Part shown: positions 48,567 through 60,580 of the stretch, piece after piece
How positions within the stretch are numbered: position 1 is the stretch's first letter
Layout of the letters: each line of letters begins with the position of its first letter
Made by a program: the position numbers and the translations under genes
Source: Cytophagales bacterium
GTDB lineage: Bacteria > Bacteroidota > Bacteroidia > Cytophagales > Cytophagaceae
Direction of reading: 5' to 3'
Length of the DNA stretch: 64,000 nucleotides
Assembly: GCA_004294225.1 (NCBI GenBank)
Contig: REBA01000018.1
Span: forward strand, 1 to 64,000
The notes under the pieces: model-generated
The model's database searches: none
What the model saw: the letters and a program-made list of their open reading frames with translations, nothing else
Told to the model about the DNA's origin: nothing

Positions 48567-50196
48567 TTAATGAATGTTTAAAAGTTCTTTTGCATTAACT
48601 ATAGCAGATGCAGTCGGTTGAGCTCCACTTAACATCTGTGCCAGTTCTAGAATCCGCTCTTCTTGACTCAGTTCTTTCATTTTACTAATAGATTTTTCTT
48701 CACTATTGTCTTTATAAACAAAATAATGTTTATCTCCCTGAGCTGCTATTTGAGGCAGATGAGATATAGAAACAACTTGGTGTTTAGAAGCCATTTGTTT
48801 CATCATACTTCCCACTTTTCTTGCTATTTCTCCTGAAATTCCTGTATCTATCTCATCAAAGATTATGGTAGGCAATGCTGTTTTGTCTGCTAAAAGGTAT
48901 TTTATACAGAGCATTAATCTAGAAAACTCTCCTCCAGAGGCAACATTTTTAAGTTCTTGAGGTGCCACTCCTTTGTTGGCACTAAATAATATCACTATCT
49001 CATCTGCTCCAGTATTATTTGGCTTCACTTTTTTGTGATCTATTTTTATACTTGCATTAATAATTCCTACTTCTTTCAACAAAGTTTCTAATTCTTCAAC
49101 TATACGAGGAATGATGGCAAGTCTGGTTTCGCTAAGCTTTCCAGCAGATACTAAAAGCTCTTTTTCTAGACTGGAAAATTGTTTTTGAACGTCTTGAATT
49201 TTTTCTTCTAAATTTTCTATTTCTCCTATTAAGCAAAGTAGTTATATCATTAGCAGAATGTTTCTTCAATAAATGATAAATAAGGCTTAGTCTGCTCTCT
49301 ATTAATGGCAGTTCTTCGGGACTATATTCTTTGCTTTGTTCAAAATTTTCTATCTCAAAACTTAGGTCTTTTATTTCTGCCAAACAGCTTTTTAATCTTT
49401 GTTGAATAGGGTAAAGCGAGGCGTCTAACGAAGAAAGCTGAGCTATCAACTTTTCAGCCAAAACTAGGTTAGCAACAATATTATTGTCTTCACCCTGAAA
49501 CAAAGAAGAAAGTTGAACGAGCTTAGTCTTTATTTCTTCACTATTCTCCAATACTTTAAGCTTTTGCTCTAAAGTGGCTTGCTCATTGAGCTGTAATTGT
49601 GCTTCTTCTAATTCATCATGTAAAAAAGTATTAAAACTAAGCTGAGCTTTATCTTGGTTTGATTTTGAATTTAAATTTTCAAGTAATGCTTCCGTCTGTC
49701 TGTATTTCTTATATAACTCTTTATAGGTTTCTAGCTCTAATTTATTAGCTGCAAAGGCATCAATAATAGAAAGCTGAAATGTAGCATTGCCCAATGCTAA
49801 AGTTTCGTGTTGAGAATGAATATCCATCAATTTAGCTCCGATTTTTTTTATAAAATCTAGCGTAACTGGGGTGTCATTTACAAAAGCCCTTGATTTACCT
49901 ATTGTGTTAATTTCTCTTCTGATAATACAGCTGTGTTCATAATCTATATCTTCTAATTCAAATAATTCTTGAAGATGATAGTCTTGAATCTCAAACTGTG
50001 CTTCTATAATACATTTATCTTCCGCATTATGAAGCGATTTGGTGTCTGCTCTATTTCCAAGCAAAAGACCTATCGCACCGAGCATTATAGATTTTCCAGC
50101 TCCTGTCTCGCCTGTGATAATATTAAGGCGAGAAGAAGGGTTCATCTCTAAATGTTTTATCAAAGCATAATTTCTAATTAATAGGCTTTTAAGCAT
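48567..50196 (-). pseudogene. recN: DNA repair protein RecN, interrupted by a one-base frameshift
   Basis: RecN is an SMC-like ATPase for double-strand break repair. The N-terminal part (50196 to about 49231) has the Walker A NIITGETGAGKSIMLGAIGLLLG and the coiled-coil start. In a region reading LLKKHSANDITTLL the frame then loses sense and stops at 49132. One base further on, the next frame continues without loss (IGEIENLEEKIQDVQ, LLVSAGKLSETRLAII) to the C-terminal signature NVASGGEFSRLMLCIKYLL, FDEIDTGISGEIARKVG and SHLPQIAAQGDKHYFV. Skipping one base among 49230-49236 restores about 543 residues. No homopolymer is present at the site. Confidence 0.88.
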
Positions 50197-50198
50197 AG

Positions 50199-50426
50199 TC
50201 AGTAGGGGGATTCGTAGTCTTTTATAACCTCTATTATTTCGCTAAGTTGGAATTTTAATTGATGGGTATGGGTATCATTAATCACTAACTGTTCTGTATT
50301 TATTTGACTAATAATACCAGCATATACTTTATTATCTGCAAGAAGTAGATTTACCATTTGCCCAAGCAGTTCTGATTTGTTTTCTAAAATTATAGAATTT
50401 AAATATCGTTTTTGTCGCTTACTCAT
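50199..50426 (-). CDS. Small Sm-like protein (75 residues)
   Basis: A 75-residue protein. After a basic N-terminal helix (KRQKRYLNSIILENKSE) it has a five-strand pattern ELLGQMVNLLLADNKVYAGI / ISQINTEQLVIND / HQLKFQLSEIIEVIKDY that resembles the Sm/LSm beta-fold (G and D positions of an Sm1-like DNKVYAGI and an Sm2-like terminal segment). I recognise no named family, and this fold guess is mine. It ends 2 bp before the recN start, so the two are co-transcribed. A nucleic-acid-binding function would fit, but is unproven. Confidence 0.6.
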   Translation of the reverse strand: MSKRQKRYLNSIILENKSELLGQMVNLLLADNKVYAGIISQINTEQLVINDTHTHQLKFQLSEIIEVIKDYESPY

Positions 50427-50639: not shown

Positions 50640-52115
50640 ATGAATAGCAAAGACAAACAAGGGTGGAACTTCGATAATTCCTACATTAAACTACCAAGTA
50701 TACTCTATTCATTATCAGTTCCTACACCAGTATCTAAACCTGATTTACTTCTCTTTAATGATGATTTAGCAAAATATTTAGGAATAAATTTTAAAAATCA
50801 TGACAAAGAATATCTTGCTCAATACTTGACTGGAAACATGATTATTGAAGGGGCTCAACCTTTGGCACAAGCTTATGCTGGCCATCAATTTGGGCACTTT
50901 ACGAAATTAGGTGACGGTAGGGCTATATTGTTGGGCGAACATATTAACCCAGAGAAAATAAGGTTTGACATACAACTCAAAGGAGCGGGAGAAACCCAAT
51001 ATTCAAGAAGAGGAGATGGAAGGGCTACCTTAAGGTCAATGCTCAGAGAATACATAATTAGTGAAGCAATGCATGGGCTAAGAATACCTACTTCTAGAAG
51101 TCTAGCGGTAGTTACTACTGGTGACGAGGTTTACAGAGAGCAAGTCCATGAAGGAGCGATACTTACCAGAATAGCCTCTAGCCATATTCGAGTGGGTACA
51201 TTTGAATATATCAGCAATTTTTTGCCTGTGGAAATTCTAAAGACATTCCAAAGCTATGTTATTCAAAGACATTACCCAGAATTAGTAGATACTCAAAATC
51301 CATCTATTGAACTTTTAAAATCTGTAATGTTAAAGCAGATTGATTTAGTGATTGACTGGATGAGGGTAGGATTTATTCATGGAGTGATGAATACCGATAA
51401 CATGTCAATTGCTGGTGAGACCTTTGATTATGGACCTTGTGCATTCATGAACGCTTATCACCCCAATACAGTGTTTAGTTCTATAGATACTCAAGGCAGA
51501 TACGCTTTTGGTAATCAAGCAAGAATTGCTCATTGGAATATCACTCGCTTTGCTGAAACACTCATACCACTTATTCACGATAACAGTTCAGAAGCTATTC
51601 AGATGGCAGAAGATGTATTAAATTCTTTTCCTTTAATATACAATGAAAGATGGACAAGAATGATGATGTCTAAGATAGGAATAGCTCTAAACATCAATTC
51701 CTCTGAAGAAATATTTGAACTAATAGAAAAGCTTCTGGCATGGATGATTGCTGAAAAAGCAGATTATACAAATACATTTCTTCAACTAACTATAAAAGAA
51801 GAGAATTTTAAAGGAATCTATGCTTCTGATGACTTTAAAGTATGGTATAATGAGTGGAACTTAGTATTAAAAAAACTAGGGATAAACCATGAAATGGCAA
51901 TAGAAACGATGAACTATTATAATCCACAATTTATTCCAAGGAATCATATTGTCGAAAAAATATTAGATGAGGTCAGTAATGATAGAGATTTTACACTCTT
52001 CAATCAAACTTTGGCTGCATTAAAAAATCCTTACCAATATAAGGTAGAGTATGATTTCTTAAGAAACACCCCTACTGGCAGTGACTTGGCTTATAAAACC
52101 TACTGTGGTACTTAA
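50640..52115 (+). CDS. selO: SelO-family protein adenylyltransferase
   Basis: A 491-residue pseudokinase-fold protein that AMPylates other proteins. It shows AQAYAGHQFGHFTKLGDGRAILLGE (about 78-102), RFDIQLKGAGETQYSRRGDGRATL, PTSRSLAVVTTGDEVYRE, GAILTRIASSHIRVGTFE and VMNTDNMSIAGETFDYGPCAF. The last residues are KTYCGT, with Cys at the place where vertebrate SELENOO has selenocysteine. Typical length. It lies alone on the plus strand, convergent with the DUF1501 gene. Confidence 0.93.
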   Translation: MNSKDKQGWNFDNSYIKLPSILYSLSVPTPVSKPDLLLFNDDLAKYLGINFKNHDKEYLAQYLTGNMIIEGAQPLAQAYAGHQFGHFTKLGDGRAILLGEHINPEKIRFDIQLKGAGETQYSRRGDGRATLRSMLREYIISEAMHGLRIPTSRSLAVVTTGDEVYREQVHEGAILTRIASSHIRVGTFEYISNFLPVEILKTFQSYVIQRHYPELVDTQNPSIELLKSVMLKQIDLVIDWMRVGFIHGVMNTDNMSIAGETFDYGPCAFMNAYHPNTVFSSIDTQGRYAFGNQARIAHWNITRFAETLIPLIHDNSSEAIQMAEDVLNSFPLIYNERWTRMMMSKIGIALNINSSEEIFELIEKLLAWMIAEKADYTNTFLQLTIKEENFKGIYASDDFKVWYNEWNLVLKKLGINHEMAIETMNYYNPQFIPRNHIVEKILDEVSNDRDFTLFNQTLAALKNPYQYKVEYDFLRNTPTGSDLAYKTYCGT

Positions 52116-52147: not shown

Positions 52148-53380
52148 TTAAATAAAATCTAAATACCCATATTCTCTGCCCAAGACCAGTTTATCTTCTG
52201 CATTTAACCATCTTTTTATAATCGTAGAGTAGATGGTCTTAAAATCTACACTAGATCTTAAACAAAAATCGTCTAACTGTTCATTCGCCAACGAAGGCAT
52301 AGGGTTATAAAGCCCTTTCTTCTTTAGTGAACCACTCAATAAAAACACGTTGTTTGCCAGACCATGGTCTGTACCTTCACTTTCATTTTCTTTAACCGTT
52401 CTTCCAAATTCAGAAAATACCATTACCATCACGTCTTCTAACCTTCTATTGGCTTTAAGATCTTTTATGAAGGATTTCATTCCATCCGAAAATTTTGCTA
52501 GAATTTTTTCATGTTTAGGCAACTGGTCAACATGAGTATCAAAACCTGGCAAGGATACATAATAGACTTTAGTTTCCATATTAGAAATAATTAGTTCAGC
52601 TACAGTACGCAGGTCTACTCCAAACTGAGTAAGCGGATAGGGTGTTTTGGTTTTAAAAACTTTAGATCTTTCATAAATATGATTCACAGAGGCTAGAGAA
52701 TCTCCAAGTGTTTTATAAAGAAAGTGGAGAGGTGTGCCCTCTAAAGCATCTTCTCTAATCTTTGCTACCTCTTTAAAGAAAGTATTATTAAAATTATTAT
52801 AGGTTCTTGTAGGGTCTATGAATGCCAACCCTTTTGTCTTATCACCTTTCAGAGCTAAGTTTAAAGAATCGTCCATTTCTAGAGCCATGTATGGCTTCCT
52901 ACAAGCAGCATTTTGACAACCATGATCTAAATACCTGCCTATCCATCCGCTTCTATTGATATAATCTCCTGTACCGCTGGCTGTTTGCCAAGTTTCCATT
53001 GCTCTTATGTGAGTTTTCTCTACGTTCTGAAAACCTACGGTATTAATGACCGATAGAATGCCTTGGTCATAAAAATCTTTAAATATTCTCAGTTCAGAAT
53101 GAAAGCCCATTTCATCATTTACCTCATAGACCTCATCTCTAGGAATACTAATTTTGGGTCTTAGTTTGTAATAATTGTCATTCCTAAAAGGCACCAAACA
53201 ATTTAACCCATCGTTTCCTCCTGATAATTGTATAACTACTAAAACTTTATTATCAATATTTGCCCTACTAATAGCTTCTGCTAATTGGCTTTGCGATGCA
53301 CTAAGAAACTCGGGCAGCAATGCAGTTCCAGCTGTTGCTAAGGTTGCATTCTTTATAAATTTTCTTCTTGATTGAGTCAT
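52148..53380 (-). CDS. DUF1501 protein (sulfatase-fold, Tat-type signal)
   Basis: A 410-residue exported protein. The N-terminus SRRKFIKNATLATAG resembles a twin-arginine signal (SRRxF). It then has VLVVIQLSGGNDGLNCLVPF (about 45-64), EKTHIRAMETWQTAS, GDYINRSGWIGRYLD, VYYVSLPGFDTHVDQ and MVFSEFGRTVKENESEGTDHGLANNVFLL, the DUF1501 signature with its His/Asp metal-like residues. The fold is alkaline phosphatase-like. Substrate unknown. It is partnered by a DUF1800 gene 22 bp upstream, an association common in Bacteroidota, Planctomycetota and Proteobacteria. Confidence 0.9.
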   Translation of the reverse strand: MTQSRRKFIKNATLATAGTALLPEFLSASQSQLAEAISRANIDNKVLVVIQLSGGNDGLNCLVPFRNDNYYKLRPKISIPRDEVYEVNDEMGFHSELRIFKDFYDQGILSVINTVGFQNVEKTHIRAMETWQTASGTGDYINRSGWIGRYLDHGCQNAACRKPYMALEMDDSLNLALKGDKTKGLAFIDPTRTYNNFNNTFFKEVAKIREDALEGTPLHFLYKTLGDSLASVNHIYERSKVFKTKTPYPLTQFGVDLRTVAELIISNMETKVYYVSLPGFDTHVDQLPKHEKILAKFSDGMKSFIKDLKANRRLEDVMVMVFSEFGRTVKENESEGTDHGLANNVFLLSGSLKKKGLYNPMPSLANEQLDDFCLRSSVDFKTIYSTIIKRWLNAEDKLVLGREYGYLDFI

Positions 53381-53402
53381 GAGTTTGTAGATTCGAGATG
53401 AA

Positions 53403-54809
53403 TTAGCACAATTGGTATTCTGGCAATGAAGTAATTTTTAAGGCTATGATAAGAATTGGGTTTGATTTCTCGATTTTATCGGTCTCCTTTACAATTAATT
53501 CAACTTGTTTTTTATTGAGTGGATGTTGAAGCAAAAAGTTAGCCATTCCTTCTAGCATCTTTTCTTGACCTTGCCCCATAAATGGTTTCCCAAATTCTGC
53601 CCAGTTAATAAGAGGGCGAAGCACTTCAAAGTCTTTTTCCGACAGATAATCTGTTTCTATATCTCCATCTTCTTTGGGAAACAATTTTATTTCTGCAGCA
53701 TTAAAAATATATTCAGGAAGTCTAAGCCGAAGCATTAAGCTAGAGCTATCAATAAGCTCCTTTCCAGAACTCCATCCTGCTGCGTTAGTTGGGTAGAGCA
53801 GTACTTGACCCAATACTTTTTGAAGAAACAACATGTGTTTGTTGTCTTCAAAGGTGATACCAAAAGTGCGTTTCATATTCACCAATAGTTCAATTGGTGA
53901 CTTTATCAATACACCAATATTTTTATCTTCATAAAACCAGCTTGAAGTAAATATTTCTTTCATTAGAGCACTTAAGTCATATCCTGATTTAAAAAAATTC
54001 TCAGAAAGGGTATAAATATGATTACCATCAATATTTTCATTTACAAAATAACGATAGATTTTGGTCGTAATAAATTTAGCTGTTTGTTTTTGCTGAAGTA
54101 TAATATTTATAATCTCTTCACCAGTGAAGTTACCTCTTATGCCTAGAAAAATTTTTGCATCGGCATCATGACTTGCCTCGTTGTATAAGAAATTTCCATT
54201 AGGGTCAAAACCCCATCCAGTAAATGCTCTAGCTACGTCTTTGGTGTCTTTTTCAGAGTGTGTGCCACGACCTAAAGTAAACACATTGAGTAGCTCTCTA
54301 GCAAATCCAACATCTACTTTCCCTTTGATGTTTTTATGATTGCTCAGGTAAAGCAACATAGCAGGGTCTTTACACATTGCCAAAAGTAAATCACTGAATT
54401 TACCAAGTGCATGCTTTCTGATGGTGTTTAATTGGTTTTGCATAAAATAGGCATTAATGCCTTTGCAAGAAAAATGGCTATGCCAAAATAAAACCATCTT
54501 TTCTCTTAGTTGAGCATCGTCGCTTACCAACTTCTCCATCCAGCCCAAATTAAGCTGCTTCAATCTTTCTTGTGAACGCTTGAATATACCTGCTTTCTCT
54601 TCTTTATTCTTAACACCACCTACTTGAAACATTTCGTCGGCTTCCTCAAACAATCTTAACTCTGTATAGTTTTTTGACTTTTTGAAAAGCTCGTTTACTA
54701 TATCATTGGGTTTTCGTGAACTGTTTTTTACAATATATGTTGGCGTATCGCCAAAACCAGCACGAAGCAATAGGTGTTGAATTTTTCTCTGATTATTGAT
54801 TACCGCCAT
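53403..54809 (-). CDS. DUF1800 protein
   Basis: A 468-residue protein beginning with KIQHLLLRAGFGDTPT, the usual HLLxRxGFG of DUF1800. Further segments are MVLFWHSHFSCKG, LLAMCKDPAMLLYLSNHKN, ARELLNVFTLGRG, DVARAFTGWGFDPNG and AAGWSSGKELIDSS. The family's function is unknown, and it nearly always travels with DUF1501. It has no obvious signal peptide here, unlike its partner. An ATTACGA/TCGTAAT palindrome lies 55 bp upstream of its start. Confidence 0.88.
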   Translation of the reverse strand: MAVINNQRKIQHLLLRAGFGDTPTYIVKNSSRKPNDIVNELFKKSKNYTELRLFEEADEMFQVGGVKNKEEKAGIFKRSQERLKQLNLGWMEKLVSDDAQLREKMVLFWHSHFSCKGINAYFMQNQLNTIRKHALGKFSDLLLAMCKDPAMLLYLSNHKNIKGKVDVGFARELLNVFTLGRGTHSEKDTKDVARAFTGWGFDPNGNFLYNEASHDADAKIFLGIRGNFTGEEIINIILQQKQTAKFITTKIYRYFVNENIDGNHIYTLSENFFKSGYDLSALMKEIFTSSWFYEDKNIGVLIKSPIELLVNMKRTFGITFEDNKHMLFLQKVLGQVLLYPTNAAGWSSGKELIDSSSLMLRLRLPEYIFNAAEIKLFPKEDGDIETDYLSEKDFEVLRPLINWAEFGKPFMGQGQEKMLEGMANFLLQHPLNKKQVELIVKETDKIEKSNPILIIALKITSLPEYQLC

Positions 54810-56263: not shown

Positions 56264-57343
56264 ATGAAAATTCTGGATTTATATATATTAAAACGCTTCC
56301 TAACTTCCTTTTTCTTTGTAGTACTTTTACTTTTAGCTATCATAGTGATGATAGATTATACTGAAAAAAATGAAGACTTTATAAAAAGTGGTTTGTCCTT
56401 CTTTGAGATTACTAAACAATTTTACATCTACTTTATTCCTTATATAGCAAATACCATTAGCCCTCTTATCATATTTATTGCTGCTGTATTTGTAACCTCT
56501 CGAATGTCTTCTCATACAGAGATTATAGCTATTCTTAATAGCGGAGTCAGTTTTAGGCGTTTCTTATTTCCCTTTTTTGTAGGTTCTTCTATCATTGCTA
56601 TTGCTACTTTCTTCCTAATTGGTTGGGTAATCCCTAAATCAAATAAAGCAATGGTAGCATTTGAAAATAAGTATTTAAAAAATAAATTCTATTTTGAAGG
56701 GAGGGACGTACATATTAAAATATCGCCCACCGATTATATCTATCTAGAAAGTTACAACAATCATATCCTTACTGGATACTCATTTACTCTAGAAAAAATA
56801 GAAGATGGATTATTAAAAAGTAAATTAAAAGCTTCAAGAATTGTATGGAACAATGAAAAAAACAAATGGACTTTAGAAGATTATCAAATCAGAAATTTTT
56901 CTGGAATGGGTAAACAAAAAATACTCAGTGGAAATCTATTAGATACGCTAATTGACCTTAAACCTTCTGATTTTGAAAGTAAATATATGCATCAAGAAAT
57001 TTTAAACTTTTCTGAGTTAAATGATTATATAAATACACTGAAAGAACGAGGAGCTGAAAATATAGAAATGTATGAAATAGAGAAATACGAAAGATATGCC
57101 TACCCCTTCGCTGTAATTATATTAACCATCTTCGGAGTAATAGTATCTGCAAAAAAATCTAGGGGCGGAACTGGATTTCAAATTGCTTTCGGCTTTATTT
57201 TAGCTTTTGTATATCTCATCTTTGTGATACTAAGCAGAAGCTTCGCCACTTCTGGGGTTATCAGCTCAATGATGGCTGCTTGGACACCCAATATTCTGTT
57301 TTCAATCATTGGTTTATTAATGTATAAGTTCATGCCTAGATAA
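56264..57343 (+). CDS. LptF/LptG-family LPS export permease
   Basis: A 359-residue inner-membrane protein: LYILKRFLTSFFFVVLLLLAIIV (about 6-28) with the FTEKNED-type segment after it, three helices in the N-terminal half, a periplasmic beta-jellyroll (about 140-250, KIEDGLLKSKLKASRIVWNN) and a C-terminal group of helices (VIILTIFGVIVSAKKSRGG, IGFILAFVYLIFVILS). This is the YjgP/YjgQ fold that with LptB extracts LPS for transport to LptC/A. LptF and LptG cannot be told apart with certainty; the opening TEKNEDFI resembles LptG of this phylum. Nine bases separate it from the M1 peptidase gene. Confidence 0.88.
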   Translation: MKILDLYILKRFLTSFFFVVLLLLAIIVMIDYTEKNEDFIKSGLSFFEITKQFYIYFIPYIANTISPLIIFIAAVFVTSRMSSHTEIIAILNSGVSFRRFLFPFFVGSSIIAIATFFLIGWVIPKSNKAMVAFENKYLKNKFYFEGRDVHIKISPTDYIYLESYNNHILTGYSFTLEKIEDGLLKSKLKASRIVWNNEKNKWTLEDYQIRNFSGMGKQKILSGNLLDTLIDLKPSDFESKYMHQEILNFSELNDYINTLKERGAENIEMYEIEKYERYAYPFAVIILTIFGVIVSAKKSRGGTGFQIAFGFILAFVYLIFVILSRSFATSGVISSMMAAWTPNILFSIIGLLMYKFMPR

Positions 57344-57352
57344 TCTTTTTTT

Positions 57353-60300
57353 ATGAAGAACTTTCTAATCTTTTTTATCCTTTTCACAAATTTTCTTTCC
57401 ATCGCTATAGCTCAACAATGGAACCACTTATCGCCTGAAATTCCTTACAGAAGTTCTCAAAACCAATATTATTGGAAAAACAGAATTCACAACCCTATCT
57501 ACTGGCAGCAAGATGTTCATTATACCATCAATGCTTTAATTGATGACGAAACAGACATTATTTCAGGAGACTATCAATTAGTATATTGGAACAATTCACC
57601 ATTTCCGCTCAAAGAGCTTTTCTTTCATTTACATCAGAATGCTTTTCAACCTAATTCTTATTATGACAATCTGAATAAAAACAACAATGTAAAAGTAAAG
57701 TTTGGAAAATATGAACAACAGGGGCTAGGCACATCTTGCGATAGCATAAGAATTAACAACAAACCAGCAATGGTAGAGCTAGACAACACAATAATGAAAA
57801 TCCCTCTCTTTGAAACCTTAAAATCAGGGGACTCTATTGTGATTACAATGAAGTTCAAAACCTACTTTGATACTGGCACGATGAGAAGAAGAATGAAAAA
57901 GTTTGATTCCTTCAATACAAAACATTTTGATGGAGTACAGTGGTATCCAGCAATAGCAGTATATGATGCTAAATTTGGTTGGAATACAGACCAAGATTTA
58001 GATAAAGAATACTACGGAGATTTCGGAGTATTTGATGTAAAATTAACTTTCCCTCAAGAATATATTGTAGAGGCTACCGGTGTTCTTCAAAACAAAGAGG
58101 AAGTAATGCCAGACTCGCTAAGAAAAAAATTAGACCTTAGCAACTTTGTAAAAAAATCTCCTGCCGAACCCATTTCCCAAATCATTGCAAAAGAAAAAGG
58201 AAAAACAAAGACCTGGTACTTTCATGCTAAAAATGTTCACAATTTTGCTTTCACCGCAGACCCATTATACAGGATAAGCGAACTAGAGTGGAACGGGATA
58301 AAAGTAATAGCTCTAGCCCAAGAAAATCATGCTGCTGGTTGGCAACAGTCAGCTATGTTCACCATGAATGTTATAAAAGTATATTCAAAAGATTTTGGAA
58401 TGTATGCTTGGCCCAAAATTATTGTAGCCGATGCCAAAGATGGCATGGAGTACCCTATGCTTACTCTTGATGGAGGAACCTACCCTCAACATCAAGGGCT
58501 ATTAGCCCACGAAGTTGGTCATATGTGGTTTTACGGAATGCTTGGAAGCAACGAAACATACAGAGCCTACTTAGATGAAGGTTTTACACAATTTCTTACT
58601 GTATGGTCTATGGATAGAATAGTAGGTGAGAAAAGGGCTAGATTTCACAAAAACAAATACATTTCAAAATACCTAGACTCTTCTGATACTCGTTATGAAA
58701 ACTTATACTACCCTTATTTAAATCATGTCAATGAAGGATTCGACGAACAACTAAATACGCACTCTTCTGCATTCAATGGAGCAATTAGACATGGAGGAAA
58801 TTATGGGCTTGTTTATTATAAAACTGGCGTAATGCTATACAATCTTAGGTATGTTCTAGGCGAAGAATTGTTTCTTAATGCTATGAAGTACTATGTCGAA
58901 AAATGGAAATTCAAACACCCCTACCCAGAAGATTTCAGACAATCAATTATAGAATACACCCAAGTAGATTTGAATTGGTTTTTTGACCAATGGCTAGAAA
59001 CCAATAAAAGCATAGATTATGGGATAGAAAAAGTGAAGAGAATTTCTAAAAACAATAATTATGAAATCACTTTCTCAAGAAAAGGCAGAATGCAAATGCC
59101 CATAGATTTTACTGTAATAGATGAGCAAGACGTCAAACATAATTATCATATCCCAAACACTTGGTTTACAAAGCAAACTCAAGCTACTGTATTACCCAAA
59201 TGGTATGGTTGGGACTTGCTTCAACCTACTTATACTGCAACTGTTAATATCCCCAATAAAATAAAATCTATTGAAATCGACCCCGAAAAATATTTAGCAG
59301 ATGCAGATTTGAGAAATAACAAAGTAGGCGAAGGGGGCATTTGCAGCTTTGAATTCGACCATAGAGTACCATCTATGCCTAGCTGGACAAGAGCAAAGAA
59401 TTTTTGGAGACCAGACGTGTGGTACAATAGCTACGATGGCCTGCAACTTGGTCTCCACGCCGAAGGAGCTTATCTTAACAAAAACACCTACTCTATTTCG
59501 GCTTGGTACAACTCAAGATTGCTACAAAACAATGTTTTCGGCGATTTATCTAATAAAAATCAACCTGTCGCTTTTGAAATATTCAACAAAAATTCCACCA
59601 ATAAAATTTGGCACAACTCCAACCTTTCTCAACACTCCTTCTATAATGCTGGTGTTACAAAAGTAGCACTCAATTTTGAAAAAATATTTAGAACTCAAGA
59701 CACTAGAAACCCTAGGTATTCAAAGCTGTTTGCTGAGCTAAAATATTTAGTCAATGCTCAAAACATAGCCCCTTATTTACTATTCCCCTCTAACTGGGCT
59801 ATGAATAACCAAAATACAAACAATGCCAACTATATTAATGCTAGCTTTAATATAGGTTATAGCAAATATTATGTCTATGAAAAAGGCAACGGAGAATTAA
59901 CATTTACAGTAAGAACACCAGCTCCAAAATCTAGTTATAACTACTCCTACCTCCTTCTAAATTCATTGAATAAAATCAACTGGAAAAAGTTTGAAATCAA
60001 ATCAAGAATATTTGGACAATGGATTTTTGGAGACGAAATCCCAAGTGCTTCAGCACTGTATCTTGCAGGAGCAAACCCAGAAGCTTTGATAGAAAACAAA
60101 TTCACCAGAGCTAGAGGATTTGTTCCTGATCAGTGGATGGGTTATGGAGCTAATACCAATCATTTTCATGCAGGAGGTGGGCTGAACCTTAGAGGATATG
60201 CTGGTTATTGGGCTGTTCAAGAAAACAATGGCATACTAAATACTTCATATATTGGTAAAGGTGGAGCAAGCTATAATATCGAAATTGACTTTGACAAATA

Positions 60301-60580
60301 TTTCAAAATTCCTGCTAAGGGAATTACTAAAAATCTGAAAGTAGACACCTATTTCTTTGGTGATATTGGCACAATAGCCTATAATTTCGAGAAAAAAACC
60401 TACCCAAGTGCATTAAGAATGGATGCAGGAATAGGCACATCTGTAACTATAAAATTCTCTCCTCTAGATATCAAGCCATTGGTGATTAGATTTGATATGC
60501 CTCTCTGGCTCAACACGCCACCAGCAACAGAAGAGTATTTTCAATTTAGATATCTTGTTGGAATTAATAGAGCGTTCTAA
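57353..60580 (+). CDS. M1-family metallopeptidase with C-terminal beta-barrel-like domain
   Basis: A 1075-residue exported protein (signal peptide, LSIAIAQ near residue 22). Residues about 50-570 form an M1 aminopeptidase-like domain: the GxMEN-type segment DGMEYPMLTLDGG, zinc site HEVGH (386-390) and Glu409 in YLDEGF, so HExxH-X18-E is complete. Beyond about residue 640 the rest is beta-rich with aromatic alternation (YSISAWYNSRLL, YLVNAQNIAPYLLFP). It contains GGGLNLRGYAGYW with L946-RGY, the Omp85 L6-loop type motif, and ends FRYLVGINRAF with a terminal Phe. The tail probably forms an outer-membrane barrel carrying the peptidase. It follows the LptF/G gene by nine bases. Confidence 0.8.
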   Translation: MKNFLIFFILFTNFLSIAIAQQWNHLSPEIPYRSSQNQYYWKNRIHNPIYWQQDVHYTINALIDDETDIISGDYQLVYWNNSPFPLKELFFHLHQNAFQPNSYYDNLNKNNNVKVKFGKYEQQGLGTSCDSIRINNKPAMVELDNTIMKIPLFETLKSGDSIVITMKFKTYFDTGTMRRRMKKFDSFNTKHFDGVQWYPAIAVYDAKFGWNTDQDLDKEYYGDFGVFDVKLTFPQEYIVEATGVLQNKEEVMPDSLRKKLDLSNFVKKSPAEPISQIIAKEKGKTKTWYFHAKNVHNFAFTADPLYRISELEWNGIKVIALAQENHAAGWQQSAMFTMNVIKVYSKDFGMYAWPKIIVADAKDGMEYPMLTLDGGTYPQHQGLLAHEVGHMWFYGMLGSNETYRAYLDEGFTQFLTVWSMDRIVGEKRARFHKNKYISKYLDSSDTRYENLYYPYLNHVNEGFDEQLNTHSSAFNGAIRHGGNYGLVYYKTGVMLYNLRYVLGEELFLNAMKYYVEKWKFKHPYPEDFRQSIIEYTQVDLNWFFDQWLETNKSIDYGIEKVKRISKNNNYEITFSRKGRMQMPIDFTVIDEQDVKHNYHIPNTWFTKQTQATVLPKWYGWDLLQPTYTATVNIPNKIKSIEIDPEKYLADADLRNNKVGEGGICSFEFDHRVPSMPSWTRAKNFWRPDVWYNSYDGLQLGLHAEGAYLNKNTYSISAWYNSRLLQNNVFGDLSNKNQPVAFEIFNKNSTNKIWHNSNLSQHSFYNAGVTKVALNFEKIFRTQDTRNPRYSKLFAELKYLVNAQNIAPYLLFPSNWAMNNQNTNNANYINASFNIGYSKYYVYEKGNGELTFTVRTPAPKSSYNYSYLLLNSLNKINWKKFEIKSRIFGQWIFGDEIPSASALYLAGANPEALIENKFTRARGFVPDQWMGYGANTNHFHAGGGLNLRGYAGYWAVQENNGILNTSYIGKGGASYNIEIDFDKYFKIPAKGITKNLKVDTYFFGDIGTIAYNFEKKTYPSALRMDAGIGTSVTIKFSPLDIKPLVIRFDMPLWLNTPPATEEYFQFRYLVGINRAF

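Follow-up and report, generated by a model that had tools for sequence, protein, structure and literature searches.

The gene at 57353-60580 on the plus strand encodes a protein of 1075 residues. Full-length homologues and the AlphaFold2 (AF2) model support one chain made of a signal peptide, an intact zinc aminopeptidase of family M1 and a BamA/Omp85-type outer-membrane barrel of its own. The gene lies in a window of 64,000 nucleotides, the whole stretch of Cytophagales DNA that was analysed, and all its features given below are on the plus strand. A new enzyme-Omp85 architecture is our best reading of this protein. The model describes what is probably a periplasmic zinc aminopeptidase, anchored in the outer membrane on an Omp85-type barrel that lacks POTRA domains. 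An earlier note on this DNA had proposed that a peptidase and a barrel are fused here. The open reading frame is indeed uninterrupted, with 1075 codons from an ATG start. The fusion itself is borne out by the AF2 strands and L6 loop, by a Foldseek top 50 composed only of BamA and by an Omp85-specific profile match.

The chain begins with a Sec signal peptide of about residues 1-20 or 1-21 (57353..57415), as read from the sequence and the Bacteroidetes Q-rule. In this group a glutamine follows the cleavage site of signal peptidase I (PMC5837995). Cleavage between AIA and QQ, before Q21 or Q22, fits the rule and is probable. The M1 region covers residues 51-651 (57503..59305), according to Pfam, Foldseek and the secondary structure. 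It consists of an N-terminal beta domain, a thermolysin-like catalytic domain and a beta-sandwich. Judged by position, the helical domain IV is absent. Peptidase_M1 (PF01433) is the only Pfam match in the protein, at residues 381-547 (E = 1.7e-12; 47.9 bits against a cut-off of 27.7). With the full-length AF2 model as the Foldseek query, the top 50 matches were all M1 aminopeptidases (IRAP, ERAP and others), with a best E-value of 1.8e-23.

The catalytic site is supported computationally. The complete zinc site claimed earlier is present as HEVGH-x18-E at residues 386-409 (58508..58579), with all ligands conserved in 78 of 78 full-length homologues. H386, E387, H390, E409, E366, Y488 and K490 are invariant in this set. 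Likewise, the GxMEN-like aminopeptidase motif DGMEYP (363-368; 58439..58456) keeps D363, G364, E366 and Y367 in all 78. We take Y488-Y-K490 (58814..58822) to be the 'VYxK' catalytic-tyrosine motif of M1, by analogy with VYEKG in PepN; Y488 and K490 are present in every homologue. The asparagine of GxMEN is replaced by tyrosine at residue 367 in 78/78, with the glycine and the key glutamate equally invariant and the methionine conserved in 75/78. Going by the motif, this substitution may alter the substrate specificity. Compared with the M1 aminopeptidases LTA4H, PepN and ERAP/IRAP, the protein has in common HExxH-x18-E, a motif resembling GxMEN, the catalytic tyrosine and the domain order I-II-III. 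It differs in having tyrosine for the GxMEN asparagine and a barrel in place of the C-terminal helical domain.

The tail (residues 655-1075) had no match by sequence or HMM search in Pfam, NCBIfam or the PDB, and the Omp85 Pfam model PF01103 did not recognise it. AF2 was run with the alignment of 78 homologues and reached a pLDDT of 89.6 and a pTM of 0.86 for the full chain; modelled by itself, the tail gave 85.7 and 0.84. The modelled tail has 16 strands, the last one short, and a 76-residue L6 loop joins strands 11 and 12. This Omp85-type barrel occupies residues 681-1075 (59393..60577), as seen by AF2, Foldseek and hhalign; its closure was judged from the strands, topology and fold matches of the model. 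BamA accounts for every one of the 50 best Foldseek matches of the tail in the PDB, with E-values from 4e-11, a probability of 1.00 and 426-480 columns. Although BamA is abundant in the PDB, the tail's top 50 includes no porin, FadL or TonB receptor, which are heavily represented there as well. The TM-scores are moderate (0.36-0.50 by query length; rmsd 8-16), so the barrel is unlike BamA in detail.

In hhalign, where each E-value is that of a single comparison, the tail alignment (A2) matched the Omp85 barrels of 24 related genomes with an E of 9.6e-5. With the distant tails added, this became 9.7e-9, and the nearest single set was the TamL-type one (3.2e-8). The match to the BamA-type subset alone was weak (0.003-0.14). 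The FadL, PorP/SprF and TonB barrels of related genomes were not matched (0.19-0.75 overall, and 0.19-0.72 with the combined tail profile). The earlier suspicion of an Omp85-like barrel holds in structure prediction (16 strands and an L6 loop of the Omp85 kind) and in profiles, which match Omp85 at about 1e-8 and not FadL, PorP or TonB. These computations support the fold and topology of the barrel, which is too diverged for sequence models such as Pfam to recognise.

A soluble beta-rich tail without a membrane barrel, either a sandwich or a T9SS C-terminal domain, is very improbable. The barrel-like alternation that the earlier note had pointed to is real, with a value of 0.48 in the tail against 0.20 after within-strand shuffling, and 0 of 2000 shuffles attained 0.48. 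Yet this measure also gives 0.50 for the beta strands of the peptidase half, which is soluble. Alternation alone is thus no proof of a membrane barrel and leaves room for a soluble tail. What argues against the latter is the topology and confidence of the AF2 model, the BamA-only structural matches, the Omp85-specific profile match, the motif pair described below and the terminal phenylalanine. Neither a soluble sandwich nor a T9SS domain was seen in AF2 or Foldseek.

The AF2 model contains no POTRA domain, a typical part of Omp85 proteins, and there is no room for one between residues 643 and 680. This is no bar to Omp85 membership because the superfamily is defined by its barrel, and its 'Metallo', 'WD40' and 'noNterm' subfamilies have no POTRA (Heinz and Lithgow, PMC4104836).

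Two signatures mark the superfamily: the tip of L6 carries (V/I)RG(Y/F), and strand 13 carries (F/G)xDxG (PMC4490367). The L6 loop comprises residues 894-969 in the AF2 model (60032..60259) and is 65-80 residues long in 78/78 homologues. Its tip carries LRGY (946-949; 60188..60199), which confirms the L6-like motif noticed earlier near the end of the tail. R947 is invariant (78/78), and the residue preceding RGY is aliphatic (L, I, M or V). Strand 13, at 995-1012, holds FGDIG (1002-1006; 60356..60370), the counterpart of FxDxG, with F1002 and D1004 in 78/78. The terminal phenylalanine, also remarked on before, is kept in 76/78. The lid-lock motifs are in this way supported by the computational analysis.

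More distant fusions are less uniform at these positions. We scored 37 of them, which are related sequences, by eye from the motif position: six have both the arginine and the aspartate, 11 the aspartate only and 18 neither; none has the arginine only, and two were undecidable. A strict covariation of the lid-lock arginine and aspartate was considered and rejected, as only 'R implies D' holds among the 37. A second branch of M1 fusions of about 970-1060 aa (loci L161, L163, L162, L166, L164, L165, L158 and L159) shows no L6 RGY at the usual place. Its strand-13 aspartate is mostly kept, and a C-terminal extension follows the last strand.

For the topology, we took as premise the Omp85 arrangement, in which strand 1 has its N-terminus on the periplasmic side and the odd connectors are outside. 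Their mean lengths over the 78 homologues are 3, 19, 2, 20, 7, 77, 11 and 13 residues. The even connectors average 4, 7, 5, 2, 2, 15 and 11. The long, variable connectors (means 19, 20 and 77) are thus among the outer ones. These lengths are consistent with long loops outside and short periplasmic turns, which would place the peptidase in the periplasm. By this Omp85 topology it should face the same side as in PlpD, the best-studied enzyme-Omp85 fusion, whose enzyme domain stays periplasmic (PMC11116518). The earlier note had the peptidase presented by its own outer-membrane barrel. The barrel stands, but its topology implies the periplasmic side and not the surface.

We regard it as improbable that the barrel carries the M1 domain across the outer membrane, in a type Vd-like manner, to cut environmental peptides outside. 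Such a display was long assumed for PlpD and appears as the earlier model in PMC4104836, and an aminopeptidase outside the cell would be useful for scavenging nutrients. Nevertheless, PlpD itself does not export its enzyme domain (PMC11116518). The Omp85 strand order also sets the N-terminus of strand 1 in the periplasm, and the conserved L6 implies a closed extracellular side.

As we infer it for the anchored periplasmic enzyme, the precursor would be exported by Sec and lose its signal peptide before the glutamine (Q21 or Q22). The C-terminal 16-stranded barrel would then enter the outer membrane, where BAM presumably inserts it. The L6 loop, fixed by the LRGY/FxDxG lid lock, would shut its extracellular side. 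On the periplasmic face, the M1 domain, connected to strand 1 through a short linker free of POTRA, would act as a zinc aminopeptidase. Candidate substrates near the outer membrane are peptides or partly degraded proteins, whose N-termini it would trim. At a guess, the peptides could come from imported nutrients or from envelope-protein debris. The main role of the barrel would be to anchor and position the enzyme.

The barrel might instead be an active Omp85 insertase or translocase, with the M1 domain replacing POTRA as a substrate-binding or quality-control module, which we consider unlikely. Where the function of an Omp85 protein is known, it is that of an insertase or translocase, PlpD excepted, and the lid lock is intact in this protein. 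Quality control was also proposed for the 'Metallo' Omp85 proteins by Heinz and Lithgow (PMC4104836). On the other hand, POTRA is missing. Related fusions have lost the lid-lock arginine, and often the aspartate, yet keep the peptidase, and peptidase-only forms nest among the fused ones. The loss of the lid lock with the peptidase kept, and the existence of peptidase-only forms, suggest that the peptidase is the constant function. It is likewise doubtful that conduit and protease are coupled, so that the barrel would bind or pass polypeptides and deliver them, at its periplasmic mouth, to the aminopeptidase, in place of POTRA. The polypeptides in that case, no less doubtfully, would be an OMP substrate or a peptide on its way into or out of the cell.

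The putative anchored aminopeptidase is not peculiar to this genome, whose closest relatives also have the fusion. At least 582 relatives occur in the genome collection, and almost all of the best 80 are full-length fusions with a Bacteroidota label. A few records carry other labels and are probably mis-binned. In the phylum sample, the family profile matched in 219 of 297 genomes, and at least 41 of the 297 have an M1 match whose frame is 930 aa or longer. The tail was found in 34 of 195 genomes of the order sample, one copy each, in frames of about 1040-1170 aa except for four short ones. One genome has an additional small tail fragment. Short contigs and frames aside, the tail in this sample always occurs in M1-sized frames. 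The tails of distant fusions are homologous to it (hhalign of A2 against the far tails, E = 1.8e-39). With this computational support for its conservation, the M1-Omp85 fusion appears old and widespread, phylum-wide in Bacteroidota.

In a tree of 62 M1 domains, whose root is a midpoint guess, fused forms are on all main branches. The peptidase-only forms (about 615-670 aa) are nested in a clade of fused forms that has a support of 100/100. The simplest reading is an early fusion, with the barrel lost later in these forms. One homologue (L020:4435-7665) is broken by a single stop at about query residues 425-439, just past the zinc site. It is likely an error of the metagenome-assembled genome (MAG) or a broken gene.

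An LptF/G gene (56264-57343) is the upstream neighbour, on the same strand and 9 bp away, and downstream are feoA and feoB. The earlier note had correctly seen this neighbour and read it as fitting an envelope role. However, BLAST found LptF/G in only 1 of 77 homologous loci, that of the closest relative (L005), so the neighbour is lineage-specific and gives no evidence for such a role. Homologues in other lineages lie near BrkB, NadC, DUF4783, DprA or flippase genes. The 77 loci thus show no gene neighbourhood that the family as a whole conserves. The context holds no functional clue for the family.

Other genes of the window were also observed. A RecN-like gene with an SMC/AAA_23 domain (48567-50241, minus strand) appears to be split into two overlapping frames, an N-terminal one of 369 aa and a C-terminal one of 224 aa. 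It probably reflects an assembly frameshift or a pseudogene. At 52148-54809 (minus strand), DUF1501 and DUF1800 genes adjoin on one strand with a 22 bp gap, a recurring pair. A SelO protein adenylyltransferase (PF02696) is encoded at 50640-52115 (plus strand).

The earlier note knew of no such architecture for M1, and we found no published M1-Omp85 protein in the open-access literature. The Pfam family PF00149 has a metallophosphoesterase-type fold, unrelated to M1. It appears as a 'metalloprotease' among the ten bacterial Omp85 architectures of Heinz and Lithgow (PMC4104836), which include POTRA-less and patatin forms and none with M1. Those 'Metallo' proteins share with ours a metal-dependent hydrolase before a POTRA-less Omp85 barrel. 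In contrast, they are conserved at the genus level only, whereas the gluzincin M1 form is phylum-wide in Bacteroidota.

With BamA, TamA and TamL, the protein has in common the barrel fold, an L6 that joins strands 11 and 12 and the LRGY + FxDxG lid lock, and its profile is nearest to the TamL-type set. It differs from them in having a peptidase instead of POTRA domains, and the sequence identity is very low. The BamA of F. johnsoniae likewise has LRGY (PMC12611786). Identity with a BAM subunit of that species, especially BamP, whose name hinted at a peptidase, was considered and rejected: BamP is a periplasmic linker protein, and that paper has no peptidase (PMC12611786).

Proteins exported in this phylum often bear an N-terminal pyroglutamate, a residue that ordinary aminopeptidases leave in place, and the protein described here is a candidate aminopeptidase of the outer membrane. 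A possible protection of such N-termini from the cell's own periplasmic proteases has been raised (PMC5837995). The subfamilies with and without the lid lock, together with the peptidase-only relatives, make the purpose of the barrel testable. Finally, PlpD and the patatin-like Omp85 proteins share with ours an enzyme domain N-terminal to a 16-strand Omp85 barrel in a single chain (PMC11116518). PlpD is a patatin lipase with POTRA that forms a homodimer (PMC11116518), whereas here an M1 peptidase precedes the barrel and POTRA is absent. It would be the second type of enzyme, PlpD being the first, to support the idea that evolution reuses the Omp85 scaffold as an enzyme platform.
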